A stretch of DNA of 64,000 nt from Lactobacillus xylocopicola (GTDB taxonomy: Bacteria; Bacillota; Bacilli; Lactobacillales; Lactobacillaceae): positions 850,501 through 914,500 of the forward strand of contig NZ_AP026803.1 in NCBI RefSeq assembly GCF_033096005.1. The letters are read 5' to 3'. Shown here piece after piece: positions 20,900 through 39,862 of the stretch; within the stretch, counting starts at the first letter, position 1, and every line of letters starts with the position of its first letter. The translations under genes and the position numbers were made by a program. The notes under the pieces were generated by a model. That model did not search any database, had not been told where the DNA came from, and saw only the letters and a list, made by a program, of their open reading frames with translations.

Positions 20900-21202
20900 C
20901 TCTGTACTCCCTTGCTTTTATTACCTAAATCTTAGCCTAGGCAAGTAAATCCCACAAGTGGCAAAAATTATTTTTACCTAAAAAAACTTATGTACCTTAA
21001 TTAAAATTAAGGTTGATTCAAGCTTGTTCTTTGTCAATTCCAACTTGAATTAGTGTCTTGTAATTCATTTCCATTCTTTGATAAATATGCTAACGATTTA
21101 TTGAACGCATTCACTATAAAATTTCGAATAATCGATAGCATACATTTACCCTACCTACTCAAGAAACGCGCATAGCCAATAATTGTAACTGTGTGAGTAA
21201 CA
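20900..21202. other. Intergenic stretch without a recognised gene
   Basis: About 300 AT-rich bases downstream (minus sense) of the orphan CRISPR-like repeat. It holds a small palindrome CCTTAATT/AATTAAGG near 20996-21013, otherwise nothing I can assign. Confidence 0.5.
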
Positions 21203-21229
21203 GGACACTCCCGCTTACGCGGGAAACAC
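21203..21229 (-). repeat. Orphan degenerate CRISPR repeat
   Basis: The plus-strand sequence GGACACTCCCGC...GCGGGAAACAC matches the array repeat except for one deleted T and two substitutions; the hairpin CCCGC/GCGGG is intact. It is 714 nt outside the main array, not in register with the 61-nt period, and begins directly after the stop codon of a small membrane ORF. Confidence 0.8.
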
Positions 21230-21916: not shown

Positions 21917-24813
21917 GGATCACCCCCGCTTACGCGGGAAGCACAAATAATCAACGATCTCTTGTATTATTGCGAAGGGATCACCCCCGCTTACGCGGGA
22001 AGCACTCATAGCGAGGCTGATATGGCTTTTGCCAACGAGGATCACCCCCGCTTACGCGGGAAGCACATGCTGAAAATGCCTTTAGTGGCGTTAAATACGG
22101 GATCACCCCCGCTTACGCGGGAAGCACTTAACCTGCTTGGCAATTTGCTCGCCAAACTTAGGATCACCCCCGCTTACGCGGGAAGCACTAACCGTCAAAA
22201 GACATTTAACATTGGCCAAGGGGATCACCCCCGCTTACGCGGGAAGCACTATCATTTTCTGCAATCATAAACTGGTCACCTGGGATCACCCCCGCTTACG
22301 CGGGAAGCACATGCCGGCTGGAAAATAAGCTATTCTGGCCCGAGGATCACCCCCGCTTACGCGGGAAGCACCCCTGCATAGAAAAGCCCTACGTACCTTT
22401 TAGAGGATCACCCCCGCTTACGCGGGAAGCACCCATACGCTATGGACTTTTCTACTAATGTCAAGGGATCACCCCCGCTTACGCGGGAAGCACGTCCAAC
22501 CATGCCGCGTTCATGAAGAAACGCAGGGATCACCCCCGCTTACGCGGGAAGCACAAAAGAAATCATACTGAAAAACGGCGAAAAACGGGATCACCCCCGC
22601 TTACGCGGGAAGCACTTCTTTTCAGTGTTCATTTTAATTCTCCTATTAGGATCACCCCCGCTTACGCGGGAAGCACCATAATCTTCACTTTTATCATAGT
22701 ATTCACTTAGGATCACCCCCGCTTACGCGGGAAGCACACCGAGCCTGCCAAGTTTTGCCGCGTTTTGTGAGGATCACCCCCGCTTACGCGGGAAGCACCG
22801 TCTTTTTCTTCTTTTGATTTAAAAATCCCCAGGATCACCCCCGCTTACGCGGGAAGCACTCAACAGGTGTAGGTACATCTACACTAGTTGGAGGATCACC
22901 CCCGCTTACGCGGGAAGCACTTGGCGATTTGTCTACATTGATGAGCCTTCAGGAGGATCACCCCCGCTTACGCGGGAAGCACCTTGCTAATATTTTCATC
23001 ATTGGCTAGATTGTAGGATCACCCCCGCTTACGCGGGAAGCACACACTGGACACTAATACCTAAATTACTAGAAGAGGATCACCCCCGCTTACGCGGGAA
23101 GCACTGATTGCCATATTTATTTCCCCTTTGATTTTTGGGATCACCCCCGCTTACGCGGGAAGCACTTGCGTTTATCAGGCTTCTTGTTTTTTTAGTCGGG
23201 ATCACCCCCGCTTACGCGGGAAGCACAAGAGAAAGCTGATACCGGACTAGATAAAGTTAGGATCACCCCCGCTTACGCGGGAAGCACCAGTTGGCCACAC
23301 CCTCGTAAATGTCGGTCTCAGGATCACCCCCGCTTACGCGGGAAGCACTAGCTTATACTGAAGCAACAAGTTGTTTACTAGGGATCACCCCCGCTTACGC
23401 GGGAAGCACTACCAGAATTGTTTGATAATGATGAGCTACCTAGGATCACCCCCGCTTACGCGGGAAGCACAAAGCTAACCTTGACGGATAGTGATCATAA
23501 ATAGGATCACCCCCGCTTACGCGGGAAGCACTTGGTGAATTCCTTAAAGACATCAACCTTGGCCAGGATCACCCCCGCTTACGCGGGAAGCACCAGTACT
23601 ATCTGCCACCTGAATGTTGCCTGCTGGGATCACCCCCGCTTACGCGGGAAGCACTGGTAGATGACCCCGCGCTGTTTGAGCTCCTGAGGATCACCCCCGC
23701 TTACGCGGGAAGCACTATTCGTCAGCAACAGACACAGCTTTGGATCGAGGATCACCCCCGCTTACGCGGGAAGCACATATTGCGAAAAAATATTTACAAG
23801 ATCATGGTAGGATCACCCCCGCTTACGCGGGAAGCACAAGTTCAATCGAATTAGTAACCTGGTCTGTGTAGGATCACCCCCGCTTACGCGGGAAGCACAC
23901 AGTCTTGGGAAGATGCTTTAGAAGATTTGAAGGATCACCCCCGCTTACGCGGGAAGCACCTAGGTACATCGTTTCAAGAAGATTGATTAGTGGGATCACC
24001 CCCGCTTACGCGGGAAGCACAAAACCGGTAGACCTAGACCTGACCAAATTAGGGGATCACCCCCGCTTACGCGGGAAGCACTTTTTTAGTTAGCTGTTTA
24101 TTTTAAGCTGTTAGGGATCACCCCCGCTTACGCGGGAAGCACTGTCCTGACGTAAATGCAAATAAGCCAGTACCAGGATCACCCCCGCTTACGCGGGAAG
24201 CACAGGAAATACTAGTAATAAGAAAGAAGATGATGAGGATCACCCCCGCTTACGCGGGAAGCACTTTTTGGTGTTCAATGGAATTCTTTAGTTTTTGGGA
24301 TCACCCCCGCTTACGCGGGAAGCACCATACTATAATACCTTTTGTTCAGTAAGTGAAGGGATCACCCCCGCTTACGCGGGAAGCACAGTGTAATTATACT
24401 AGTTAGAAATTTATGCCTGGGATCACCCCCGCTTACGCGGGAAGCACCACATGGATACAGGATAACTAATCATGGTTTGAGGATCACCCCCGCTTACGCG
24501 GGAAGCACGAGGACAAGCATAATGGCTAAAATCAAAGTAAAGGATCACCCCCGCTTACGCGGGAAGCACAACGAACTAGGTCCTTCCGCTCCCCACACAT
24601 AGGGATCACCCCCGCTTACGCGGGAAGCACACATATTAATCCTCCTAGTCTAATATTTTGATAGGATCACCCCCGCTTACGCGGGAAGCACCATTAATGA
24701 GATGTGTATTGCGGGAGCTGATTAGGATCACCCCCGCTTACGCGGGAAGCACACCAATTCTTTCTCAATTAAGGGCAATACGCCAGGATCACCCCCGCTT
24801 ACGCGGGAAGCAC
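21917..24813 (-). CRISPR. Type I-E CRISPR array, 48 repeats and 47 spacers
   Basis: I located 48 copies of a 28-nt repeat (plus strand GGATCACCCCCGC...GCGGGAAGCAC), identical as far as I could read. The period is 61 nt, with two 62-nt steps (repeats 17-18 at 22893/22955 and 27-28 at 23504/23566), hence 45 spacers of 33 nt and 2 of 34. The crRNA-sense repeat starts GTGCTTCCCGCG and ends GGGGGTGATCC, as in other type I-E systems, so the array is read on the minus strand, away from cas2. The base after each repeat in crRNA sense is always C or T, suggesting a 29-nt functional repeat with a PAM-derived last base. Spacers are all different. Confidence 0.99.
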
Positions 24814-24842
24814 ACTAAATAGATCCCGTTAAATCAGCATTC
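24814..24842 (-). promoter_or_regulatory. Very short gap between cas2 and the first repeat (leader-proximal end)
   Basis: Only 29 bases separate the cas2 stop and the first repeat in crRNA sense. Any leader with promoter or integration signals must extend into the cas2-exonuclease 3' end, or the array is transcribed by read-through from the cas operon; no terminator is visible between them. Confidence 0.6.
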
Positions 24843-25723
24843 CTAAAAATGAAGATCTTCGTTTTTAATTAGTTTTTCTGCAAGACTCAAAGTTGCTTCA
24901 GCGTCTGATCTTGCTTCATGCGGTCTTGAATTTTCGATTTTGTATTTTTCCAATACAGTACCTAACTTATAATCATCTAGAAATTTGTTTTTCTTTTTTA
25001 CAATTGGCATTAAGTCAATTAATTTATTAGATAAACCTTCTTCATTGATAGTCTTAAAACCCGTCGAGATAAACCTATCATCAAAGGACAAGTTATAGCC
25101 GATAAGCGGTAATCTTTCAACAAATATTTTCAGCCCATGCAGTGCTTTGCTTAATTCAATACCTTGATCCTTTAGACTTTCATTTGAAATGCCGGTTAGC
25201 TTAACAATGCTTTCGGGGATTCTTTGGTCAATTTTAACAAAAGCATCGTAATGTTCTTTGGTTCCGTCAGCATTTCTTTTAACAGCAGAAATCGAGATTA
25301 TTTGATCTTTCGTTGGATCTAAACCCGTGGTCTCGATGTCAAGGGTAACGAAACGGTCTTGACTTTCTATACTATAATGTTTTTGCATACCGGCTTTTGC
25401 TTTGCGCCATTTCGCAGCCTTACTAAAGCCATGTTTAACAGGAACATCTACCCGGTTTAATCGTTTTACCAGCGGAATTCCTTCAAAATCCCTAACCTGA
25501 TAATCCGGTCTAGTAGTTTTAACTTGATAGCCAAATTCATTTTTAGCATTGAAGGCCATAGTTGCCTGACCATTACCGATGTCACGCATAATTCGGTCCC
25601 ATAATAAATCACGGATCCTCGCGGTCACATTACCAACATAAACACCGGTCTGAATTTCTTGACACCACTTGGTTAGGTCCCCTCTAAGTGAAGGCGGAAC
25701 TTTAGTTAAAGTAATAACTATCA

Positions 25724-25724
<1 letters not shown>
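24843..25724 (-). CDS. cas2: Cas2 fused to a DEDDh (DnaQ-like) exonuclease
   Basis: 293 residues. Residues 1-95 are Cas2 of type I-E (MIVITLTKVPPSLRG, ...). From about residue 122 a DEDDh 3'-5' exonuclease follows: ExoI DIETTG with Asp129 and Glu131, ExoII GYNLSFDDRFI, ExoIII HEARSDAEA near residue 275. Such fusions are known in type I-E systems of lactic acid bacteria, where the exonuclease trims prespacers for Cas1-Cas2 integration. Start overlaps the cas1 stop by one base. Confidence 0.95.
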
Positions 25725-27329
<1,605 letters not shown>

Positions 27330-27341
27330 TTTGCTCCTTTC

Positions 27342-28043
27342 TTACAACGCCGCAAATGGGTCGTGTTCGCTACTTGTTTTAAACTTTGGATTAGTTACTT
27401 TTTTCCAAACACGGACAACTGGCCGGTAATCGAAATAGCGATTACGTTGATCAAAAGAACCAACACTATCTTTCACCATGAAGTATTTTTCGCCAGCTAA
27501 GAGTTTAGCATCAGCAAACAATTCCACATTGATTATCTCTTCCTGTGATTTTTTCTCTTGATACCAATTCGCTGCCTGCCAAGGCAATTTGGATAGGACT
27601 TCTACTGGATTAGCATCAGCAAATACAGCTATTTGTAAAACCCCAGCTGGAGCATTTGAACGCCGACCGAGGAAAAGTTGAAACTTGGGATGGTGCAGCG
27701 CATATTTGATTTTATCAATTAATAGGTCATTTTCACTACTAATCGCAAGTACAAATACCGCATCTTGGATATAAGCCCGGTAAGTGACCTTTCGCGTGCC
27801 TTTTTTCCATTCTACGGTTTGATAATCGGTTAAAAGGGTGCCCGGTTGATCGACTCTAACCGCCAAATCAAGTTTATTAAAAGCTTTGATCCGCTGATCG
27901 TCTCTTTGATAGCCAAAAGCAGCAGCAATCATCCCAATGATCGCACTTTTGGACGGATGGGCAGCTGTTGTGCGCTGATTAAAGCTCGCTTCATTCCCGT
28001 AAGATTGCAACGGTCCCGTTAATTTAATCGTGATTGTTTTCAT
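27342..28043 (-). CDS. cas5e: Cas5e (CasD) Cascade subunit
   Basis: I place the start at the ATG at 28043 (MKTITIKLTGPLQSYG), which matches the family N-terminus; this gives 233 residues. The longer frame up to 28091 would add 16 residues unlike the family. It overlaps the cas7e end by 20 nt. Cas5e caps the 5' handle of the crRNA. Confidence 0.92.
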   Translation of the reverse strand: MKTITIKLTGPLQSYGNEASFNQRTTAAHPSKSAIIGMIAAAFGYQRDDQRIKAFNKLDLAVRVDQPGTLLTDYQTVEWKKGTRKVTYRAYIQDAVFVLAISSENDLLIDKIKYALHHPKFQLFLGRRSNAPAGVLQIAVFADANPVEVLSKLPWQAANWYQEKKSQEEIINVELFADAKLLAGEKYFMVKDSVGSFDQRNRYFDYRPVVRVWKKVTNPKFKTSSEHDPFAAL

Positions 28044-29106
28044 CTTGCACCACTTGTTCAAGTTCAGCGGATACTTGCTGGAGTAACTCATTTAAAGTAG
28101 CTACTTGATAATCTGTTAAAGAACTATCATCGTCCAATGACAAGATCCATGTTTTAACCGGCTTGTCGACCATTTTGCAGGTATTCTCATACTCTTTTTC
28201 AATTCTTTCAATTGAAGCTTTAACATAGCCTTTATTCGAAGTCACTGCTTTTTCAAATGCCGAAACCAAATTAACCGGCGTGTCAGTTCTTAACGTAATC
28301 ATGACATAATTTGGCAGAGTTTTATTAGCAAAAGTATTTTGTTTACCGGTTGGCATTGATAACAAGAACGATTTGATAAACTCAACTGTTCCTTCAACTG
28401 CCGTCTCTGAACCTAAATTATGGACCAATTCAGGGAAATTCAGGTTGGCATAACGATAAAGTGTAGAAGAATTATATTCAATTGTTCCCAGCATTGCGGC
28501 TCCCGTTGTATCTTCTTTTTGGAGATCATCAAGGGCCGTAAAGTAATCAAATTCAGGAACCACTTCATGGGTCGAGATTGCGTGCGCTACCTGGGCTGAG
28601 CCTTCAACATTGAGTTCAGGATTATCAGCAACCATGCGCCCAAATAAAGCCAAGTCTACTGATTGGTCGCTGTTGAACAAGCGCTTTAATTCCTTTTTAT
28701 CAATTGTATCGTGATCTAAAACATATTGAGCAATCTTTTCGACCTGTCCCCGACTTATTAAAAGCAAGGCTCCTGTTTTGCCGTCCTTATCCAACTTAAT
28801 GCCAGTACTCTTAAAAACTTCCTTAACTTTAGCTTGCACATCTTTTTCGGGCAAAGAAGAATCTAATTCCATGATTTTTTCGGCTATTAATTGAGCTAAT
28901 TTTACAGTTCTTAAGCCTGCACCCAAGTCATGTCCATTAAATTCTTGGCGCATTGCCCGTTTCCAGCTTTGCGATGAAACCCTTGACCTCATTACCCCGC
29001 CATAAAGCGCTGTTTTGGGAGCTCCAGTGTCGTCGCGATTAATGTTTGAAGACGGTACCGCCTGTAACGCGTGAAGATCGATGTAAAAGTTTTTATTATT
29101 GTTCAT
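28024..29106 (-). CDS. cas7e: Cas7e (Cse4/CasC) backbone subunit
   Basis: Start chosen at ATG 29106 (MNNNKNFYIDLHALQ), preceded by AAAGGAG; 360 residues. Family hallmarks: SNINRDDTGAPKTA near residue 19 and RSRVSSQSWKRAMR near residue 40. Six copies normally line the crRNA. Overlaps cse2 by 11 nt. Confidence 0.95.
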   Translation of the reverse strand: MNNNKNFYIDLHALQAVPSSNINRDDTGAPKTALYGGVMRSRVSSQSWKRAMRQEFNGHDLGAGLRTVKLAQLIAEKIMELDSSLPEKDVQAKVKEVFKSTGIKLDKDGKTGALLLISRGQVEKIAQYVLDHDTIDKKELKRLFNSDQSVDLALFGRMVADNPELNVEGSAQVAHAISTHEVVPEFDYFTALDDLQKEDTTGAAMLGTIEYNSSTLYRYANLNFPELVHNLGSETAVEGTVEFIKSFLLSMPTGKQNTFANKTLPNYVMITLRTDTPVNLVSAFEKAVTSNKGYVKASIERIEKEYENTCKMVDKPVKTWILSLDDDSSLTDYQVATLNELLQQVSAELEQVVQDENNHD

Positions 29107-29743
29107 TGTTTTCTCCTTTGGTTTTTTTATTGTATCCATAGTATTTCTGACCCCAATCGAGTCTAACCTTATTGGCTGATTCATAACTCATTTGAAAGCG
29201 ATAGAGGTCTTCAGCAAGTTTTCCGTAATCAATCTTTACCCTGGAATTATTTGCTTTAATAATCCCAATCAGATGATTAAGCGAGTTAATGACGCTATTA
29301 ACGTCGGTAGTTGCTAACGTTTGTCTAACCCGTCGATCTAAAGCTACTTCTAAATTTTCGTTTTTCCTTAGTTCTGCCAAAGCTGTAAAGAAATCGCTTC
29401 CTGCTTCCTGCTTTTTGGTAGAATCCGCTTCTACCTTGTCAGCAGCTTTTGCATTGAGCTTATTTTTACGTTGAATGTGACCATAAACCAATTCATCTTT
29501 TCCTTGCTGATGAATGGCATAAATTCTTAAAGCTGCATAAATTGCTTTTTCAGCATATGAGGGCTTACCATTTTTACTCAACATATCTGTCTCTAAAGTT
29601 TCCATCATTATCGGCCAAACAGCTTGCGCCTTAGGGCTGGCAAAACTCGCAGCGCCGCGCATACTTGCAAGTACCCCGCGATAATTCCCAGACTCATGCA
29701 TTTGCATGATCATCGAGCTGGTCTTCATACCTATTTTATTCAT
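29096..29743 (-). CDS. cse2: Cse2 (CasB) Cascade small subunit
   Basis: 215 residues, alpha-helical, basic, with the expected position between cse1 and cas7. The RGAASFASPKAQAVWP segment near residue 29 agrees with Cse2. It stabilises the R-loop. Confidence 0.92.
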   Translation of the reverse strand: MNKIGMKTSSMIMQMHESGNYRGVLASMRGAASFASPKAQAVWPIMMETLETDMLSKNGKPSYAEKAIYAALRIYAIHQQGKDELVYGHIQRKNKLNAKAADKVEADSTKKQEAGSDFFTALAELRKNENLEVALDRRVRQTLATTDVNSVINSLNHLIGIIKANNSRVKIDYGKLAEDLYRFQMSYESANKVRLDWGQKYYGYNKKTKGENNEQ

Positions 29744-29751
29744 AACTTAGC

Positions 29752-31431
29752 TCACCACCTAATTTTCAATTTGTTAGAAACGCTTCCTAACAACTTATTC
29801 TTTGCCACAAAAACATTCAGTAAATTCTTCTGATCGTCTACGATTCCCGTAATATCACGGGATGTGCTATTTTTCATAAAATCTTCTACTTCAGAATTAA
29901 CAATTTTCCATAATTCTTTCTTCCATTCGTTAATCTTTAGATCCCGATCATCTTGATTGGTCAATTGGGATAACCAGGTTTTAAAAGGCATGTTCAACTG
30001 ATCGTAAAATTTATCCATTAACTTTTTGTTCAATTCTTTAGAATCAAGTTTACGAATTCTTGCTAAATCATTGACAAATACCCAGTAGCTTTTCCCAACA
30101 TCTTGGGTCAAATCAATCGTATCTTCGATTCGTTTAGGCCAATAATTTTCACTATCATCAAAAAGTACATTGAGGTCCAAGGTCAAATCATCTGAAACTT
30201 CAGCATAAGGTGATTGAGAAGTGGCGTTACCATCACTCACTAAGGCGACTGAGACCAATGAAATGCGTTTTTTGCGCTCAATTATTTTCTCGTTTTTAAG
30301 TTCATTAAGCCAACTGACTATTCCCGGTCGATGAACATCATCAGCCTTGTTGGGATTGACATAATCACCAAATTTGCGCCACATTGCCAGACTTAATGCC
30401 TGTTTTCCTTTAACCGCAGGAATAAACTCATTATCTTTGGCTTGGCGGCTTTTTTTCCAAACTGTCATCGGTTCGATAAAAGCATTGCTTGAACTAAATA
30501 TGGGAATGCCAGCACTATAAATCGTTGGCAGCATGTCGCTTGACCACTCAATGTGAATAATTCGCGACCAGGCTGTGTAGAGTGCAGCTCGATTATCGGG
30601 TAGCAATTCCGTTTTACGCCACTTAATGTATTCGCCAATCTCATCATATTCCCAAACTGGTCGTTCTTGATAATACTCATCACCTGTCAAAACCAAATTC
30701 AACAGCAAGGATTCAAACATGTTCTTTCCATTGGCATAAACGGGATTTAATTTATACAGCCAGCCGGCGGGAGTTGAAAACTTCTCAGCAGTTTCAACTT
30801 TTGCTTTATCGGTAACTCCCGTAAAATTCTGATAACAGATGAGCCAACGTACCAATTCAGCCAAATCTACGTCATTTTTAGAATCGGCAATTTTAGGCGA
30901 AAAAAGATCGGGTGTGTTGTTACTTTCTGAAATCCGGCGATTCATTTGCTTAATCGCAACCGTCCCCGTGCCCTTGGCTATTTTGTATTTATCAAGGACG
31001 AACCGGTCGTATTCTTCCTTTGTCACCTGATAAAAAGGATGTTCCCCAAATAAATCAAAGCGATCTTGATTTTTCTTTAAGTATTCCACCACCACTTGGG
31101 TGAAATTACCGCCTTGGTATAAGCTCTCCCACGTATCAAGCAAATCATCTTCGTCGTAATCAGTAACATCTGTTACTTGAAATTTCTTGGGGTCAACCGT
31201 TAGCCAGCCATAAGACTTATCCTCGGCATTAAAGCGAGAATAAACCGTCTGTAAAACCGCTAACAAAAATCGCATAATCGCCAGATCCTGTGAGCGCATC
31301 TCACCAGCCAGCTGGCGATACTGCTTGGCATTTTCGAATAATTCGACCATTGATACTGTTTGAGTTTTTGCATTAAGATCAATTACTTTAATCCACGGAT
31401 CAATGACTAAATTAAAATGCTGATCATTCAT
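29752..31431 (-). CDS. cse1: Cse1 (CasA) large subunit
   Basis: 559 residues. N-terminus FNLVIDPWIKVID is typical. The large subunit reads the PAM and recruits Cas3. Overlaps cas3 by 8 nt. Confidence 0.94.
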   Translation of the reverse strand: MNDQHFNLVIDPWIKVIDLNAKTQTVSMVELFENAKQYRQLAGEMRSQDLAIMRFLLAVLQTVYSRFNAEDKSYGWLTVDPKKFQVTDVTDYDEDDLLDTWESLYQGGNFTQVVVEYLKKNQDRFDLFGEHPFYQVTKEEYDRFVLDKYKIAKGTGTVAIKQMNRRISESNNTPDLFSPKIADSKNDVDLAELVRWLICYQNFTGVTDKAKVETAEKFSTPAGWLYKLNPVYANGKNMFESLLLNLVLTGDEYYQERPVWEYDEIGEYIKWRKTELLPDNRAALYTAWSRIIHIEWSSDMLPTIYSAGIPIFSSSNAFIEPMTVWKKSRQAKDNEFIPAVKGKQALSLAMWRKFGDYVNPNKADDVHRPGIVSWLNELKNEKIIERKKRISLVSVALVSDGNATSQSPYAEVSDDLTLDLNVLFDDSENYWPKRIEDTIDLTQDVGKSYWVFVNDLARIRKLDSKELNKKLMDKFYDQLNMPFKTWLSQLTNQDDRDLKINEWKKELWKIVNSEVEDFMKNSTSRDITGIVDDQKNLLNVFVAKNKLLGSVSNKLKIRW

Positions 31432-34180
31432 TAACTTCCTCCTTTATTATTTTTAAACCAAATTTAGCTGAATAATTTAGCAGCCAATTATGCTTCTTAT
31501 GCTTCAAGTGAATTGTGGCATTGTTATTGCCATCCAATACAACTGCTAGTTCCCCTTTTAACCACTTATCTGACTGCCAGGTAGGAAAATATTTCCCTGT
31601 AGTTTCTTCCAAAACATCAATAATATCGTTAACATCAAAACTAACTGCTGCCGGCAAGCGAATAACTTGCCCAGCGAGCTCTTTAGACTGACAAGTCTCA
31701 ATTGGTCGACCGTCAAGCAGAAAGATTTGGTGATTTTTTTCTTGTAAAAGCAGCACATCAAGCGTTTCCTTAATATCGCGGACCGCAGCTTGGGCTTTTT
31801 GCTCATCCACTGCACTATGCGACCGATCTAGCCAACCATGCAAGGTTTTTCTCTTCTTATTTATTGGAGCCGCGATTCTAAACGCCTTAGCTTTAATCTC
31901 CGATCTTTCCAGGTCATGTGCAAATTCAGCTTTGGCTGCTGACAGACCTGCAATTTCGGGATCATTGTTTTCATCGTAGGTCTTTTGGACAAGGTTAGAT
32001 ATATCATCCGGTAAATGAATCTCATCATTTAAATAGTAATCTGTCTTCATGAGGAGGTACTTCTCGTAAACCGCCTCATTTGCGGCACCATAACTACCCA
32101 TCGCTTCAATTCCCATCACAGATAGCTTGGGAGCTCGAAACTTTGGTGGACGTTCAATTAAATGACGATGAAGTCGGCCCGCTCGTTGCAACAAGAGATC
32201 CATTGGTGCAATATCAGTGTAAAGCACGTCAAAGTCAATATCTAACGACTGTTCAAGCACTTGGGTGCCTATCACGATCATTTTGTGCGGCCTTTTTGCC
32301 CCTTTACCAATTTTAGTTTGCAGCCGCTCTTCAATCTTGATCCGCTCGGGCGCAAGGAAGGCCGAATGCAGCACAATCAATTCAACAGTTTCGTCATCAA
32401 CCAGCTTTGCCAACTCTTGTGACCTTTTAACCGTATTAACAATTATTCCAGCAATACCGCCGTCATTAATTGCAGTTAAAATTGACTTGATTAACTTGTC
32501 ACTTTCGAGGTTGATTCGTTGTACTTTTAAACTGACCGGTTTTTGATCTGATTGTCCCGCAAAATGTGAGACTTGTTTGACCTCGCTTCCATCTAAAATA
32601 GTTAAGAGCGGGTATGCTTGAGATTCGACCCATTCAGCATCTGTTGTTAATTTTTTTTGATATTTACCATGATAATAGGATTTTAAGAGCTGCACCCTTT
32701 TATCTTTAGGTAAAGTTGCAGAGAGCAGCACTAGCGGTACCCGATAAGCGCCTAACCATTCAATCGCGCGATAAAGATACTGGTTCATGTAGGCGTCATA
32801 GGCGTGCACCTCATCAATCACGATTACCTTATCGCTGAATCCGAGATGCCGTAAAAATAAGTGCTTCTGCTTGAGGGCCATTAACAACAGCGTATCAATC
32901 GTACCAACCGCAAACTTTGACAAAATGGACTTTTTACCCGTGAACCAGCTGTTAACTACAACTGCACCAGCATCTTCAACGTTACTGGCATTGGGCAAAT
33001 TTGCATATTCCTGATTAAATTGCGCCTTGCCGTGCAACAATTTAATGGCTAGGTGATCGTTCTGCTCATCTGCTATCTCGCCGAGCCAGGTGTTAACGCG
33101 GGTAAACATAGCGTTGCTCGTTGCTTGGGTAGGTAGCCCCCAGAACAAACCATCACGCTGAGTCGCATAAGCTAATTGTTCAGTGGCAATTAAAGATGTT
33201 TCTGTTTTCCCCAGCCCCATCGGTGCTTCGATGATAATCATGCCGGGATCACTGGTATCCTCAATCGCCTCTGTGATTACTCTTTGTACGGGGCGAGCCG
33301 TAAAGCCCCAGCGCTTTTTGTAAGGATCCTGCGTCACGTCAACTTTTTCAGGAATCCAATCACCACTAATGTCCCAGGCTTCAACTGCTGCTTCGAAGCG
33401 ACCTTCTAAATCCAGATCATCGAATGTGAGATCCAAAGGAATCAACGGAAATAATTTTTGGTTGGGATCATCACCTAAAAATTCACTTGAAGCAAACCAA
33501 TCTGCCGTGATCAAGAGTCCTTCTAAAATAACCGCTTGAGCTTGGTTGACCGCAGGTATTTCTGCAACAGAATGATATCCAGCGAGTTTTAAGCCATATT
33601 CAAAAATTTCTTTTTGAATAGCTTGCCAATTTTTCCGCACCGCTTCAGCATCAGTCGCAGAATTACCCGTGTCATACTGTCGATAATTATCCGGATAGTC
33701 ATCAAGCTGCTCAGCCGGAAAGACTGGCCCGGCATCACCATGATGTCCGCCAATAATAGCTCCGATTGAATCTGGGAGTCCCAGATCTTCTAGCAAAGCC
33801 TCCCCTGCCTTAGCGTGAGGAGAATATTTTCGAGATGAGCCAGTATAATCGTTTAACTTTGTAAATCCCGAATCAATCAGATTTTCGATTAACTTCTCGT
33901 CCAGGTCATCGTCGCCGCTGTACGAACTTTTAGTCTGGAATGCTGGTGTGGCTTTGCCAATATCGTGATTAAACCCTAAAAATTTAACTAACTTGCGTAA
34001 TTCTGTTTCTCCGCCAACATTTTCGCTCAGCCATTTTTTTGTGCCTTCACAAACTTTATGACTGAGTAACCAATTGATTACATTGGCCGTATCAATCAAA
34101 TGAGCCAGCAAGGGTAGCCAGAGCTGTTCGCCGTTGTCAGTCCTTTTTTTCGCCCAGAGCGCCTTTACTTCTTTATCCAT
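31424..34180 (-). CDS. cas3: Cas3 HD nuclease-helicase
   Basis: 918 residues. The N-terminal HD domain has His27, Asp30 and His72-Asp73 (GFNHDIGK), then GGHHGDAGP near residue 145. The helicase part has Walker A APMGLGKTETS, DEVHAYD box II, SATLP box III and GTQVLEQSLDIDFD / QRAGRLHRH motifs. Clear AAAGGAGC ribosome site. First gene of the cas operon; nuclease-helicase that destroys targets marked by Cascade. Confidence 0.97.
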   Translation of the reverse strand: MDKEVKALWAKKRTDNGEQLWLPLLAHLIDTANVINWLLSHKVCEGTKKWLSENVGGETELRKLVKFLGFNHDIGKATPAFQTKSSYSGDDDLDEKLIENLIDSGFTKLNDYTGSSRKYSPHAKAGEALLEDLGLPDSIGAIIGGHHGDAGPVFPAEQLDDYPDNYRQYDTGNSATDAEAVRKNWQAIQKEIFEYGLKLAGYHSVAEIPAVNQAQAVILEGLLITADWFASSEFLGDDPNQKLFPLIPLDLTFDDLDLEGRFEAAVEAWDISGDWIPEKVDVTQDPYKKRWGFTARPVQRVITEAIEDTSDPGMIIIEAPMGLGKTETSLIATEQLAYATQRDGLFWGLPTQATSNAMFTRVNTWLGEIADEQNDHLAIKLLHGKAQFNQEYANLPNASNVEDAGAVVVNSWFTGKKSILSKFAVGTIDTLLLMALKQKHLFLRHLGFSDKVIVIDEVHAYDAYMNQYLYRAIEWLGAYRVPLVLLSATLPKDKRVQLLKSYYHGKYQKKLTTDAEWVESQAYPLLTILDGSEVKQVSHFAGQSDQKPVSLKVQRINLESDKLIKSILTAINDGGIAGIIVNTVKRSQELAKLVDDETVELIVLHSAFLAPERIKIEERLQTKIGKGAKRPHKMIVIGTQVLEQSLDIDFDVLYTDIAPMDLLLQRAGRLHRHLIERPPKFRAPKLSVMGIEAMGSYGAANEAVYEKYLLMKTDYYLNDEIHLPDDISNLVQKTYDENNDPEIAGLSAAKAEFAHDLERSEIKAKAFRIAAPINKKRKTLHGWLDRSHSAVDEQKAQAAVRDIKETLDVLLLQEKNHQIFLLDGRPIETCQSKELAGQVIRLPAAVSFDVNDIIDVLEETTGKYFPTWQSDKWLKGELAVVLDGNNNATIHLKHKKHNWLLNYSAKFGLKIIKEEVNE

Positions 34181-34220
34181 TTTGCTCCTTTCTTTGGTAC
34201 TTATTAATTTTTAAAAACTT

Positions 34221-34255
34221 ATTTATAGAATATTATAGTTTTTTGTTTTTGGCAA
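34221..34255 (-). promoter_or_regulatory. cas operon promoter with a mini-CRISPR target site over the -10 box
   Basis: A perfect TATAAT hexamer lies at 34237-34232 (minus strand), 51 nt before the cas3 start; no good -35 box is visible. The bases directly upstream are AAC, and the sequence TATAATATTCT matches the seed of the mini-CRISPR guide (TATAAGATTCT) at 10 of 11 positions, with the single mismatch at guide position 6. Confidence 0.72.
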
Positions 34256-34319
34256 GTGGTTTTGTTAAATATTTTAGCTTTTTGAGTAAATTGATAAATA
34301 GGTCTTCACTAAAATCCAC

Positions 34320-34349
34320 AAAAAAAGTTAGTGGCTGGCCACTAACTTT
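34320..34349 (-). terminator. Terminator of the mini-CRISPR RNA
   Basis: On the minus strand an 8-bp stem (GTTAGTGG/CCACTAAC, extendable by AAA/TTT) with a 4-nt loop is followed by seven Ts. It lies between the mini-CRISPR and cas3, so it separates the small RNA from the cas transcript. Confidence 0.88.
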
Positions 34350-34435
34350 CGTCCTTTCCCCTGCTTATTGCAGGAAACACTAGATTTCAAAGAATCTTAT
34401 AGGGATCACCCCCGCTTACGCGGGAAATAAACTGT
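34320..34435 (-). ncRNA. Stand-alone mini-CRISPR RNA, probable crRNA-like repressor of the cas operon
   Basis: Minus strand, in order: first repeat (34430-34403) identical to the array repeat in hairpin and 3' handle but with TTAT for GTGC at its 5' end; a guide of 22 nt (34402-34381), whose first base is C as in array spacers; a second, degenerate repeat (34380-34353) whose hairpin is CCTGC/GCAGG instead of CCCGC/GCGGG, a compensatory pair change; then the terminator. The guide is 11 nt shorter than array spacers, too short for a full R-loop. Its seed matches the cas3 -10 region beside an AAC PAM. This is the design of known crRNA-like cas autorepressors; function here is inferred. Confidence 0.8.
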
Positions 34436-34441
34436 AAAGTT

Positions 34442-34447
34442 ATTATA
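34442..34447 (-). promoter_or_regulatory. -10 box of the mini-CRISPR RNA
   Basis: Perfect TATAAT on the minus strand, placing the start about 34435, a few bases before the first repeat. The -35 region is poor (TTTCGT at 16 nt). Confidence 0.6.
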
Positions 34448-34615
34448 CACTTTCAAACAAATTACGAAACTATTGAACTATACAATATTTCACCTTCCAC
34501 TAACAGTAAGGATCTATCCCAGAATAAAGAATAGCGGTCAGCTGATAATAAATTAGCAAACCCATGACGTTTAACTTTTTAGTTGCACTTCATTACCTTT
34601 ATCGATGGTTTAGTT
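34448..34615. other. Intergenic region between mini-CRISPR and the second DASS gene
   Basis: About 170 AT-rich bases. No ORF, no clear terminator for the DASS gene; that transcript could therefore run on to the mini-CRISPR terminator at 34320. Confidence 0.4.
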
Positions 34616-36031
34616 TTACCACATACCGATAACTTTGGTCCAGAGCAGACCGCCGCCCAACCAGATGACGTTAAGTACAACACCAATGATTGCACTTAAC
34701 TTCCACCAGTCCTTGTTAGAGACATATCCGGTTGAAGAAAGCAGCGCAGCCGGACCAGCTGAATAGGTTGAAGTTGACAAATAGAGTGAACCGTCTAAGG
34801 CCAACATTAACGCAGCCATGATTGGCGGCACACCAGCACCAATCGCAATTGACAAAAAACCTGCATACAGGGCCGAGATTTGTGTCGAAACACTTGGAAA
34901 TAGGTAGTGCAAGTAGAAGTAAGCCAGGTATAGGATGACCAACACCCAAACCCAATTCAAACCTTGCAAACTGCTTCCCAAGGTTTTTGAGAACCACGGG
35001 AAGAAGCCTAATTGCATGAGCTTTTGTGACATTAACATAATAATTGACAACCAAGTTAAAATATTCCAAGCAAAACTCTGTCCGAGAATGTCCTTGACGT
35101 TAATTACGCCACAAATCAACAGCAGTGCGACTGCAATGAAACTAACCATTGTTGCATCAATCCCAAATTTAGAACCGATTAACCAAAGTACAACTGACAT
35201 GACAAAAACCACGGCCATAATCTTTTCAGCGGCGGTCATCTTACCAATTTCCTTTAATTTGCCATCTGCCCAGGCGTGAGCGTTTGGCGTTTCCTTAACT
35301 TTAGGTGGGTAAATTTTGTATAGAATCAGTGGCACTACTAAGAGTGAAATCAGTCCGGGGACGATTGCCGCTACAAACCACTGCATCCATGAAATGGTAA
35401 TGTTCTGTGTTTTGGCGATACCCAGTGCAACCATATTACCAGCCAATCCAGTTAAGAACATAGTTGAAGTGACAATGTTAACTTCGTACTCGTTAAAGAC
35501 CAAGAACGACCCAATATTACGCTCTGTCCCCTGCTTAGGATCAGAACCCATTTCTTTTGAAAGGTTATCAATAATTGGGTACATGATGCCGTTAACCCGG
35601 GCATTATTACTTGGAATTCCAATTGCTAAGACCGTTTCAACCAACGACAAGGCGTAAGCAAGTCCTAGAGTCCGCTTGCCAAAGGTCTTAACAAAGAAGT
35701 AGGCGATGCGCTTCCCCAAACCGGACTTGATGAAACCGGCAGCAATAAACATACACATCGCAACCATCCAGGCGGTCGAGTTACCAAAGCCAGCAGTTAC
35801 TTCTTCCATCTTAAAGATACCAGTAAGGGTTGCAATTACGATAGCAATGATGGTGGTTGCCATCATGGGCAGCGGTTTAGTCACGCAAGCAACAATTGTT
35901 GCAATGAAAATGGCAAACAAGTGCCAGGCCTGAACATTAATTGCAGCTGGTCTAACCGGCGTCAATAACCATAAGATAATACCGATTGCAAGTGGCATTA
36001 ACCACTTTTTCCATTCAAATTTATCTAACAT
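34616..36031 (-). CDS. Second DASS-family anion transporter
   Basis: 471 residues, about 12 membrane segments, same family as the cit-cluster transporter: KPLPMMATT near residue 55, SNNARVNG near residue 152 (SNSARTGG in the paralogue), STSTYSAGP near residue 420. It is 16 nt downstream of two flavoprotein genes. I infer import of the organic acid that those enzymes reduce, or exchange of it for the product. Confidence 0.85.
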   Translation of the reverse strand: MLDKFEWKKWLMPLAIGIILWLLTPVRPAAINVQAWHLFAIFIATIVACVTKPLPMMATTIIAIVIATLTGIFKMEEVTAGFGNSTAWMVAMCMFIAAGFIKSGLGKRIAYFFVKTFGKRTLGLAYALSLVETVLAIGIPSNNARVNGIMYPIIDNLSKEMGSDPKQGTERNIGSFLVFNEYEVNIVTSTMFLTGLAGNMVALGIAKTQNITISWMQWFVAAIVPGLISLLVVPLILYKIYPPKVKETPNAHAWADGKLKEIGKMTAAEKIMAVVFVMSVVLWLIGSKFGIDATMVSFIAVALLLICGVINVKDILGQSFAWNILTWLSIIMLMSQKLMQLGFFPWFSKTLGSSLQGLNWVWVLVILYLAYFYLHYLFPSVSTQISALYAGFLSIAIGAGVPPIMAALMLALDGSLYLSTSTYSAGPAALLSSTGYVSNKDWWKLSAIIGVVLNVIWLGGGLLWTKVIGMW

Positions 36032-36047: not shown

Positions 36048-37868
36048 TCACTTGTTAGCTTGCTTAATAGCGGCCTTTACGGCTTCTTCTAGTGCCTTAG
36101 TGGTCATCGATGCCCCAGAAACAGCATCGACTTCGGTAGAATTTTGCTTGACCATTTCCCGTGGCAGCTGCTCAAGCGCTACAGCTCCAATACCTTCAGT
36201 TTCATGATTTTCCAAGACTTCAACCTTTTTAATCTTCTTATCTTCATAGGTAACACGGACTAGAATGCGGCCACCGATTCCAGCTTCAGAAGAACCTAGG
36301 TATTGGTTAGCTTCCAGTTTAATCCGCTCTGCCCGATTACCGTCCACCAGATCATTAATACTGGGAACTTGATTAACTAAGTCAACTTCTTCAGCAGCAG
36401 GTGTCAACTTGGCGACGGCCTCGCCCGCAATCTTGCCAAAAATCAAGCACTCCGCCAGATTGCCTCCACCTTGGTAGTGGTTAGCGCACATGCCGCCCAG
36501 TTCCCCTGCCGTATAGAGCCGCTTAATCGGTTCGCCTTGTTCATTAAGAACACGGGCATACTCATCATGTTGTGGTCCCCCTTGGGTGTTCAAAACCGCT
36601 GGGGCCAACTTGATCGCATAAACTGCCCCATCCGTTGAGAAGAGCTCAAGCGTTGCAGGAGCACGCTCAAATTCCAAATCGCACCCGTTTTTAGCAAATT
36701 CGTTGAAGCGTTGTACCGTTTGGATTAGGTTAGTAGCCGGGACATTTAGCTTGTCGGCAAGATCAGATAGTGAAGCAGCCTTAACTAGCTTGTCGAAGAA
36801 TTTCTGATACTTTAATTTACCTTGCTGCTGTTCTTGAACAAACTTATCACACTGCTTTTGGTCAAAAACTAGCCAGGCATTGTCATAGGCATGCGGCAAA
36901 AGGTAGTCACCATGCTGATAAATATGCCCATGGCGGAACTTAGCGTCTTCACGCATAAAACGACTGCCGTCATCAGCAACAGCAAAAATTGAACCAGATT
37001 TAACGTTCTCCCAACCACTAATTTGGCGACCACGCTCATTTTCCGTTTCCGCAATCACATAACTCGGGACGATTCCTAATGATTCATAATTGCCCATATG
37101 CCACATCTTGGCACCAACTTCACTCGCCATGCTAATTCCATCGCCCTTGTTATAAAGCGTGCCAAGTGGCGTCAACTTAGTAATATGCAGGTAATCCTGC
37201 TGCATTTGGGGATTATTTTCAAATCCACCAGTGGCTAACACTACTCCGCGCTTAGCGTGCATGTAGTATTGTTTATGGTTACGAGTAATCATAGCGCCAC
37301 GGATTTCTCCAGTTTGAGCATCCGTTAGCAGATGCTCAGCTCTTGAATTCAACCAGATGTCAATGTTCTCTGCCCGTACCACTACTTCCTTACGAATAAC
37401 CTTCCATAATTCAGCATCAAAGTCGCGATTATGAACCATGGCGAAGTCGAAGGTATCAGCCCCTTCATACTCAGGATATTCACACAACTGCTTTTTGCGG
37501 GCAACGTGATCACCCTCTTGGTAGTCACGGGACCAGATGTAGGGCTCAATGCCAAAGTACTTCTTGAAGTATTCCGGTATCTCGACAAAGCCGTCTAGAT
37601 ACGCCTCCATGGTTTTGGCATCGATGGCAAAGGGTGCAGTCAACTGCTTAAAGTAGGTCTTGATTTTTTCTTGATCGTGTCCCATTGCAACATGTTGGGC
37701 TGAATAGCGTGTATTCCCGCCCTCATGTCCGTAGGGTGCTACATCAACTAAGAGTACCTTGGCACCATTATCGGCTGCGAACCGAGCCGCAGTTCCGCCA
37801 GCACCACCAAAGCCGAGGACGATGACATCATAGTCACCATTCCACTTAGTTTGCGCATTAACTTCCAT
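36048..37868 (-). CDS. FAD_binding_2 flavoprotein with C-terminal FMN_bind domain
   Basis: Start chosen at ATG 37868 after AGGAGG, giving 606 residues. FAD motif VLGFGGAGGTAA near residue 15. The C-terminal FMN_bind domain ends with the DAVSGAS flavinylation motif near residue 582. Fumarate reductase residues are replaced: no HPT, and QGGGNLAE where NRxGGN is expected. Substrate unknown. Starts one base after the stop of the paralogous upstream gene. Confidence 0.82.
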   Translation of the reverse strand: MEVNAQTKWNGDYDVIVLGFGGAGGTAARFAADNGAKVLLVDVAPYGHEGGNTRYSAQHVAMGHDQEKIKTYFKQLTAPFAIDAKTMEAYLDGFVEIPEYFKKYFGIEPYIWSRDYQEGDHVARKKQLCEYPEYEGADTFDFAMVHNRDFDAELWKVIRKEVVVRAENIDIWLNSRAEHLLTDAQTGEIRGAMITRNHKQYYMHAKRGVVLATGGFENNPQMQQDYLHITKLTPLGTLYNKGDGISMASEVGAKMWHMGNYESLGIVPSYVIAETENERGRQISGWENVKSGSIFAVADDGSRFMREDAKFRHGHIYQHGDYLLPHAYDNAWLVFDQKQCDKFVQEQQQGKLKYQKFFDKLVKAASLSDLADKLNVPATNLIQTVQRFNEFAKNGCDLEFERAPATLELFSTDGAVYAIKLAPAVLNTQGGPQHDEYARVLNEQGEPIKRLYTAGELGGMCANHYQGGGNLAECLIFGKIAGEAVAKLTPAAEEVDLVNQVPSINDLVDGNRAERIKLEANQYLGSSEAGIGGRILVRVTYEDKKIKKVEVLENHETEGIGAVALEQLPREMVKQNSTEVDAVSGASMTTKALEEAVKAAIKQANK

Positions 37869-37869
37869 T

Positions 37870-39657
37870 TTATTTTGCTTTTCCTCCTTTGGCCTGTTCG
37901 ATTGCTTCGTCCACAGCTTCCTTAAAAGCCCTACTGGTAGTGGTTGCACCGCTAACTGCATCAACTTTAGTCGTTTGCTTATCTAACATCGCCTTGGTCA
38001 AAACAGGAATTGCCTTACCTCCAAGATAGGGCGTTTCTTTTTGCTGCAGGGTTTCAATGTTGGCAATCTGATCACCGTCCATCGTTACCCGAACCACAAT
38101 TGGAATATCATTAATGCCATTTTCACTACTACCAATTCCCTGGTTAGCACCGGCCACATACTCCTCCGTGGTGGTCTGTGCCTCTGATTGCAGGTCAGAC
38201 ATTTGGGAAACAGCATTGGCTGCGAATTGCTCTAGCTTTCGCTTGGGCCAAGCAGCATTTTCACCGGCAATCTTACCTGAAATTAGTAAGTCGGCAATGC
38301 TGTTAGCACCAATGTACTTGGTTGCAAAAATATCACCCAGCTCACCCGCTTCATAGAGGTGGGGAATTACGTTATTTTCTAAATCAAGCACCTCACACTT
38401 TTCGTTGCGGCGGGCTCCGCCGTGAGTGTGTAAAATATTGTGTCTAATGGCAATCGCATAGAACGGGCCGTTGCCAAATGCTCGCATAGTTTCAATCTGG
38501 CGGTTTAAGACCAAGTCGCGCTTTTGACCGCTTAAAAAGTTAAAGTCAGCGACCGCTTCACCTAATTTAGGTGCGGCGATCTTTTTAGCTAGCTCGGCAA
38601 TTGAACCCGCCTTAATTGCATATGACAAGAGTTGCTTGATCTGGTCAGCCTGAGCAGACTCATCGCTGGCCAATTGATCATATTGGCGTTGATCCATAAT
38701 GATATGGGGGTGATTCTGGTTAGGCAGCATAATCCAGTTACCGTGATTATACTTATAACCATGCCGATCCTCTTCGTCTTCACGGTAGTAGCGTGTTCCA
38801 TCGTCACCGGCTACAAAGATACTGCCATTAAACAAACTCTTCCAGTTAATCATGTAGGCAAACTTTTCTCTGGGCTGACCTTCATTTAAGGAAAAACCGT
38901 GTGAGTCATAGTTAGCCATATGCCACAGGCGGGCCCCAGCTTCAACGGCTAAGTCAATGCCTTTCCCCTTGTTGTAGAGCGTACCAATTGGTGCAAGCGC
39001 CCCCTGACCCAAAAAAGTTTGAACCATGTCCTGGTTATTTTCAAAACCACCACAAGACAGGATGACACCATTCTTAGCAGCCACATTTCGGATAATACCC
39101 TCATGCTTGATCTGTACGCCAAGAATTGTTTGGGTCTCTGGATCTTGAATCAAGTGCTCAGCGGGACTAGCAAACCAAATATCAATCTGATCTAAGCGCT
39201 CATATACTTGCTTGCGCAATAACTTCCAAAAACCTCCATTGTACATACCAGCTGTCATACTTTGCGACCGCATCGTATCAGCATGAGCATATTCGGGATA
39301 CTCGCCTTGGGGCCGTCTGCCGGTATATTCTGCTTCAATGCCAAAATATTTTTGAGCATACTCCCTCATCTGCAAAACATTATTAACAAAAGCGTCTAAG
39401 GCTTTAGGATCATATTTGAACGGATAATAGGTCTGCTGATAATAAGCACGCAAGTCGTCAAAACTGTCGCTCCAGGCGAAAGCACCACCAGCATAACGGG
39501 TGTTACCACCCTCCTGTCCTTCTGGTGCTGAATCAATTAACAAAACTTTGGCCCTATTGTCCGCTGCAAATCTTGCGGCAGTGGCGCCAGCACCACCAAA
39601 GCCAACCACCACAACATCGTAGATTGCATCCCACTTAAGTGTCGAATTATAAATCAA
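37870..39657 (-). CDS. FAD_binding_2 flavoprotein with C-terminal FMN_bind domain (paralogue)
   Basis: About 595 residues from a TTG at 39657 that follows GGAGGT by 7 nt; a GTG at 39672 would add five residues but puts the ribosome site inside the gene. FAD motif VVGFGGAGATAA; C-terminal FMN_bind domain with DAVSGAT near residue 570. Like its neighbour it lacks the HPT and NRxGGN motifs (IGANSIAD instead). The two may act on different acids or as a pair. Confidence 0.82.
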   Translation of the reverse strand: MIYNSTLKWDAIYDVVVVGFGGAGATAARFAADNRAKVLLIDSAPEGQEGGNTRYAGGAFAWSDSFDDLRAYYQQTYYPFKYDPKALDAFVNNVLQMREYAQKYFGIEAEYTGRRPQGEYPEYAHADTMRSQSMTAGMYNGGFWKLLRKQVYERLDQIDIWFASPAEHLIQDPETQTILGVQIKHEGIIRNVAAKNGVILSCGGFENNQDMVQTFLGQGALAPIGTLYNKGKGIDLAVEAGARLWHMANYDSHGFSLNEGQPREKFAYMINWKSLFNGSIFVAGDDGTRYYREDEEDRHGYKYNHGNWIMLPNQNHPHIIMDQRQYDQLASDESAQADQIKQLLSYAIKAGSIAELAKKIAAPKLGEAVADFNFLSGQKRDLVLNRQIETMRAFGNGPFYAIAIRHNILHTHGGARRNEKCEVLDLENNVIPHLYEAGELGDIFATKYIGANSIADLLISGKIAGENAAWPKRKLEQFAANAVSQMSDLQSEAQTTTEEYVAGANQGIGSSENGINDIPIVVRVTMDGDQIANIETLQQKETPYLGGKAIPVLTKAMLDKQTTKVDAVSGATTTSRAFKEAVDEAIEQAKGGKAK

Positions 39658-39862
39658 AATATCTACCTCCACTTTCCTAAATAATTCTTACTATCTGCAA
39701 TATATCCCCTAAACTTTTCTTAGTCTAATAAATTTTTGCTTACCTAATTTATAAATAAAGTGTGAGAGTTTTTGTAACTCAAAGGATTCTGGTATTTTTT
39801 AGGAAATTTAATATAATTAAAAAAGATATACTTATAAATTATTTTTATTTTAGGAAGTTAAC
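39658..39862. promoter_or_regulatory. Divergent control region, flavoprotein operon / LysR gene
   Basis: About 200 AT-rich bases between divergent starts, expected to hold both promoters and LysR binding sites; I cannot single out one. Confidence 0.4.

Follow-up and report, generated by a model that had tools for sequence, protein, structure and literature searches.

A mini-CRISPR in front of cas3 as a probable source of a self-repression guide for the type I-E locus of Lactobacillus xylocopicola

The type I-E CRISPR-Cas locus of Lactobacillus xylocopicola carries, outside its array and adjoining the cas operon, a repeat-spacer-repeat unit (here, the mini-CRISPR) that lies ∼140 to 270 nt upstream of cas3, which raises the question of what a spacer in this place could serve for. 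The stretch of DNA analyzed (the window) comprises 64,000 nt of the forward strand of contig NZ_AP026803.1 (positions 850,501 to 914,500; assembly GCF_033096005.1). Its minus strand encodes a complete type I-E operon, cas3-cse1-cse2-cas7-cas5-cas6-cas1-cas2, and Pfam families were found for all eight frames, so that genes for the cognate effector are present (Table 1). The first repeat of the main array begins 29 nt past the cas2 stop codon (24786-24845), a gap that measures 28 to 30 nt in 34 of the 39 other loci measured, and no sigma-70-like promoter was found on the array's strand within 24780-25300; the main array may be cotranscribed with the cas operon. A stray repeat-like sequence with five differences and a broken handle is found at 21202-21229, in the same orientation as the array and 687 nt past its last repeat. 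The cas2 frame (24843-25724) includes an RNase_T exonuclease domain at its C terminus. Elsewhere in the window, two adjacent minus-strand frames of 638 and 600 amino acids (36048-39672) share two stretches with 72% identity and probably form a tandem pair of paralogues.

The guide of the mini-CRISPR, C-TATAAGATTCT, occupies a spacer of 22 nt, as opposed to 33 nt, rarely 34 nt, in the main array. This shortening was overlooked in the original prediction, as was a third paired segment at guide positions 13 to 15. The short spacer and the strongly changed second repeat rule out a canonical defense array, with its near-identical repeats and spacers of 32 to 34 nt. The second repeat is followed by a terminator-like palindrome, and the fold of the entire 124-nt stretch that includes it has a z score of -3.55. 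This palindrome is not among the features returned by the consensus scan, which also gave no promoter-like hexamer pair at the mini-CRISPR's own TATAAT; an Rfam search of positions 34100 to 34620 returned zero matches at E values up to 1.

Table 1. Features of the type I-E locus and the mini-CRISPR, in window coordinates
Feature	Positions	Strand	Basis
Main type I-E array	21917..24813	-	48 exact repeats GTGCTTCCCGCGTAAGCGGGGGTGATCC
cse1, cse2, cas7, cas5, cas6, cas1, cas2	24843..31431	-	Frames and Pfam families
cas3, first gene of the operon	31424..34180	-	Cas3_HD and Cas3_C domains; AAAGGAG ribosome site ahead
Likely paired stretch, guide positions 1-16 (1-5, 7-11, 13, 15, and 16 match)	34222..34237	-	Third segment conserved in 21 pairs
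Seed match, guide positions 1-11, mismatch at 6 only	34227..34237	-	Sequence
TATAAT, -10-like box of cas3	34232..34237	-	Sequence
AAC, PAM of the promoter site	34238..34240	-	First bases of array spacers; C/T after AA in 21/21
Terminator-like palindrome, then T run	34320..34349	-	12-bp stem; would end the predicted guide transcript
Second ectopic repeat	34353..34380	-	Hairpin kept, C-G pair of the array stem replaced by T-A; handle lost
Guide spacer, 22 nt	34381..34402	-	Sequence C TATAAGATTCTTTGAAATCTA
First ectopic repeat	34403..34430	-	Hairpin and handle (GTGATCC) preserved; altered at the 5' end, 3 changes relative to the array repeat
TATAAT immediately ahead of the mini-CRISPR, predicted own -10	34442..34447	-	Sequence

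In front of cas3, the minus strand (34240-34227) reads AAC TATAATATTCT. The original prediction was that the guide seed matches this site at 10 of 11 positions, that the sole mismatch falls on position 6, the base ignored in type I-E, and that the match covers the TATAAT of cas3, all of which holds in the sequence; counting the leading C, 11 of the first 12 bases of the guide match the predicted cas3 promoter. The consensus scan instead proposes TTGCCA (34255-34250) and, after a 17-nt spacing, TATTCT (34232-34227), a box that is also within the site. The first gene downstream is cas3, ∼50 nt from the -10. A further part of that prediction, that pairing fades beyond position 11, stands for positions 17 to 22, which are unmatched, as are 12 and 14, but not for positions 13, 15, and 16, which match here, bringing the total to 13 matches within guide positions 1 to 21.

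The reading of AAC as a PAM of the AAY type is supported by the main array, in which all 47 spacers start with T (29 spacers) or C (18 spacers), the imprint expected of a PAM ending in Y. This PAM was deduced from the first bases of spacers and not from protospacers: when the array was compared with phage records, a single match of 71% was obtained, and no protospacer that could be used. The search for sites in other genomes, described below, demanded only AA and left the third base free; the base following AA is nonetheless C or T in 21 of the 21 matched cas3 upstream sites, against a background of 43%. The type I-E Cascade of Ligilactobacillus is described as binding with AAT, and for a self-targeting spacer with an AAC PAM in that system the account given is of no apparent downregulation of epsG (PMC11288051).

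One explanation of such a match would be that the mini-CRISPR is what remains of an old, decayed array and that its spacer fits the cas3 promoter by chance. Its repeats have changed, its spacer is shortened, and the window contains another stray repeat, the one with the broken handle at 21202-21229. The guide is also AT rich: among 20,000 shuffled guides, 15 matched an AA-flanked site upstream of cas3 at 10/10 positions. None of the 47 spacers of the organism's own array did so, the best one matching at 8 positions. The pattern AAYTATAANATTCT (AAY plus the seed, with N at position 6) has one exact site in the 1.636-Mb genome, at the cas3 promoter; given that a reversed pattern likewise has one exact site, and that with one mismatch allowed the genome contains 9 sites for the pattern and 13 for the reversed control, this rarity alone is unremarkable and it is the location that counts. 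Taken with the swap of guides among loci described next, these controls make a chance match unlikely, and the cross-genome test is far stronger than the shuffle and array-spacer controls.

For this comparison, named loci were fetched for the best 80 of 294 relatives and supplemented with further loci from other genomes. After the removal of duplicates, 150 cas3 upstream regions yielded 127 distinct ones, including the window (which L031 duplicates). Loci L049, L164, L165, L183, L190, L192, and L193 were excluded as partial Cas3 matches, save L183, which extends to the Cas3 N terminus and could have stayed in the set; distant Cas3 rows L184 to L189 and L191 were retained, although some of them may miss the true start and may not belong to type I-E. 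Repeat-like units were sought from -420 to -50 before cas3, with at least 5 of the 7 handle positions required in the first repeat, and a perfect match was defined as identity at guide positions 1 to 5 and 7 to 11 at an AA-flanked site of the same region, the unit itself being excluded. The 127 regions contain 44 such units, and 21 of these, the window's among them, perfectly match their own cas3 region. When guides were placed on the other regions, perfect matches numbered 12 in 5,412, of which 8 were to sister copies with the same guide; the remaining four look like chance matches, three of them being those of AT-rich guides on L120. An earlier, smaller set, superseded by this count, gave 16 of 28 cognate and 5 of 2,968 noncognate matches. 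The other 23 units lack a perfect match; several of them probably resemble repeats only by chance, but those of L136, L041, and L141 look real.

The 21 pairs of guide and target come from the window and 20 other genomes and include 18 distinct guides. They span named lactobacilli, a second family of the same order, Kineothrix (L132), a metagenome-assembled genome from the Bacillota (L139), and another member of the same phylum (L171). Their first repeats keep 6 or 7 of the 7 handle positions; where a second repeat could be placed (20 pairs), its handle is lost (1 to 5 of 7), and its best hairpin has 5 to 8 bp in 20 of 20, a figure that has no control. Spacers fall into two length classes, 21 to 23 nt in 11 pairs (including the window) and 32 to 36 nt in 9, with L118 not assigned. 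Five of the 21 pairs, the window's included, have a full TATAAT within or at the footprint, and the others have weaker boxes. Four loci of the second family (L053, L057, L058, and L059) and L132 have the target upstream of the repeat unit, and the guide may therefore sit in the leader of the very transcript it would repress; this wiring differs from that of the window.

The guide positions that were not used in selecting these pairs are telling. Position 6 is matched in 7 of the 21 pairs (baseline, 0.35) and position 12 in 2 of 21 (baseline, 0.24), so both look unconstrained. Conversely, position 13 is matched in 21 of 21 (P = 4e-9, which, like the other P values given here, is optimistic because the pairs are treated as independent while holding only 18 distinct guides), position 14 in 18 of 21, and position 15 in 16 of 21. 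The window, mismatched at position 14, differs in this from the 18. Position 16 is matched in 9 of 21 (baseline, 0.36), and from there on the counts stay near the baseline, with mild rises at position 18 (11 of 21; P = 0.012) and position 24 (11 of 21; P = 0.05). As judged from these alignments, the pattern is the one predicted by the 5+1 heteroduplex of type I-E Cascade, in which every sixth base is unread, and it ends after three segments.

In four groups of related units, chosen by eye, changes at the paired positions within guide positions 1 to 15 are compensated on the other side, except at position 9 in one group, whereas positions 6 and 12 drift. Up to six compensated positions are seen within a single genome pair; since L059 is very unlike L057 and L058, its six "compensated" positions may instead reflect an independent guide. 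The group with this exception consists of the Lactobacillus loci L129, L149, L151, and L152, in which the seed matches at 9 of 10 positions, position 9 being mismatched throughout, and covariation is seen elsewhere. These patterns point to selection on the match between guide and target in many type I-E loci. The covariation was observed at other loci and not at that of the window, for which no close orthologue was found among 60 genomes: a search of these (its own included) with the 351-nt region of the window returned no homologue of the whole element and matched three others, at the repeats in a member of another family (G049) and, with 79% identity over the terminator palindrome (query positions 156 to 201), in two members of the same genus (G024 and G027). 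A tblastn search of plasmids gave 232 records, and the 30 of them that were listed include three Cas3 matches from the lactobacillus family.

The comparative results speak against a decayed array remnant. Its chance matches would hardly produce hits in 21 of 44 cognate tests and in 12 of 5,412 noncognate ones (8 of them sister copies), a signal at positions 13 to 15, or compensatory changes. The repeat part that was lost is one for which a guide would have no need, and both hairpins as well as the handle of the first repeat have been retained. This explanation therefore appears very improbable.

It is instead highly probable that the mini-CRISPR spacer represents a crRNA-like guide (CreR) that makes type I-E Cascade repress its own cas operon without activation of Cas3. 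Transcription of the unit would run from the -10 of its own as far as the terminator palindrome, both hairpins would be cleaved by Cas6, and the guide would be loaded into Cascade as a short crRNA-like RNA. Cascade could then pair with the promoter through positions 1 to 5, 7 to 11, and 13 to 16 (14 remaining unpaired) and exclude RNA polymerase. Array crRNAs or an anti-CRISPR protein may draw Cascade off the guide, relieving the operon. In E. coli, Cascade is reported to bind fully with mismatches at positions 19 to 32, while interference and priming are stated to require more than 18 bp (PMC5904413), and in type I-B a 24-bp spacer is described as repressing without interference (PMC10989794). 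Beside its PAM, the predicted cas promoter is only partly complementary to the guide, with 13 matches in positions 1 to 21 that stay under the E. coli threshold, and cutting of the chromosome would thus be avoided; natural pairing through positions 15 to 16 would accordingly fall into a zone of binding without cutting. For off-target binding of E. coli Cascade, the expression of nearby genes is reported as unchanged (PMC5904413). A PAM-flanked match need not, therefore, mean repression, given these genes and the lack of apparent downregulation of epsG in Ligilactobacillus. As far as is known, the E. coli off-target sites with unchanged expression were not selected for promoter location.

The guide might also act mainly as a decoy crRNA or in priming, with promoter binding as a side effect. 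Its loading into Cascade is likely in any case, since the handle and hairpin are intact; however, a decoy would not need complementarity to a promoter at positions 13 to 15 or compensatory changes, and for priming the pairing is under the published E. coli threshold. There is thus only a slim chance that this accounts for the mini-CRISPR, and self-repression of the cas operon remains the preferred reading. A broader proposal can be made only tentatively, with doubt somewhat outweighing confidence: that self-silencing guides of type I-E systems in Bacillota follow a fixed code (5, skip 1, 5, skip 1, 3, stop), evolutionarily tuned to bind a promoter as tightly as a full target would be bound, yet with pairing slightly too short to license Cas3, and that one guide controls the immune locus in its entirety, the crRNAs as well as the proteins. 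The latter part is suggested by the start of the array 29 nt past cas2 without a visible promoter of its own.

CreRs, cas-regulating RNAs of types I-B, I-E, and V-A, were reportedly introduced by Liu et al. (2023, Cell Host Microbe). Like them, the mini-CRISPR is an ectopic crRNA-like unit that lies next to cas genes, is complementary in part to their promoter, and is predicted to cause autorepression by the cell's own effector; the difference is that repression is here a prediction from sequence. Mini-arrays targeting cas promoters are said to have been described by Shmakov et al. (2023, NAR), with emphasis on cas8 and a test in type I-F. They share with the mini-CRISPR the two repeat-like sequences and a spacer that can pair with part of a cas promoter, while its own target lies before cas3 in a type I-E system. 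Autorepression of SpyCas9 depends on the long tracrRNA; there, too, an effector represses its own expression, but the system is of type II, with another RNA and another effector. Such SpyCas9 autorepression is mentioned in one of two reviews (PMC13131331) that treat CreRs as known for type I-E and competing crRNAs as relieving autorepression (PMC12737573, PMC13131331); anti-CRISPR proteins are a further means of relief in the published CreR model. Hence, the mechanism of autorepression as such is not new. Among the papers listed in literature searches, titles and opening parts of abstracts named no CreR in a Lactobacillus, and the lists of Liu et al. and Shmakov et al. may already include this locus. 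What is added here, from sequence comparison, is the 5-1-5-1-3 pairing rule, the AAY motif, broad guide-target covariation, and the two spacer-length classes.

Also very improbable is a CreA-type antitoxin guide (CreTA or CrePA), by which Cascade would silence a promoter driving a toxin RNA or a small toxin gene: CreA, as described, is similarly a degenerate two-repeat guide for promoter repression by Cascade (PMC9458426), and weak plus-strand promoter-like matches overlap the site, but CreTA guides target a toxin gene, whereas here the target promoter runs directly into cas3, which has a good ribosome site, with no frame of at least 14 amino acids starting in between and only TTG-start frames, of up to 46 amino acids, on the plus strand of 34181-34620. 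The search for a toxin target thus gave no candidate frame, and a frameless toxic RNA is compatible with the sequence. The anatomy also differs in that the more diverged repeat is the first one in the CreTA units described (PMC9458426), whereas in the mini-CRISPR it is the second repeat that lost its handle and the first that keeps it.

The mini-CRISPR probably represents a directly testable self-control switch for the type I-E system of L. xylocopicola. Beyond this species, the 21 pairs with their 18 distinct guides appear to record, through selection, which bases are read by Cascade (positions 1 to 5, 7 to 11, and 13 to 15) and which are ignored (6 and 12), as well as how short a match on the organism's own chromosome stays. 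If the proposed mechanism holds, the rule could help to locate further guides of this sort, to explain why some native type I-E systems are quiet, and to plan the repression of genes with native Cascade.
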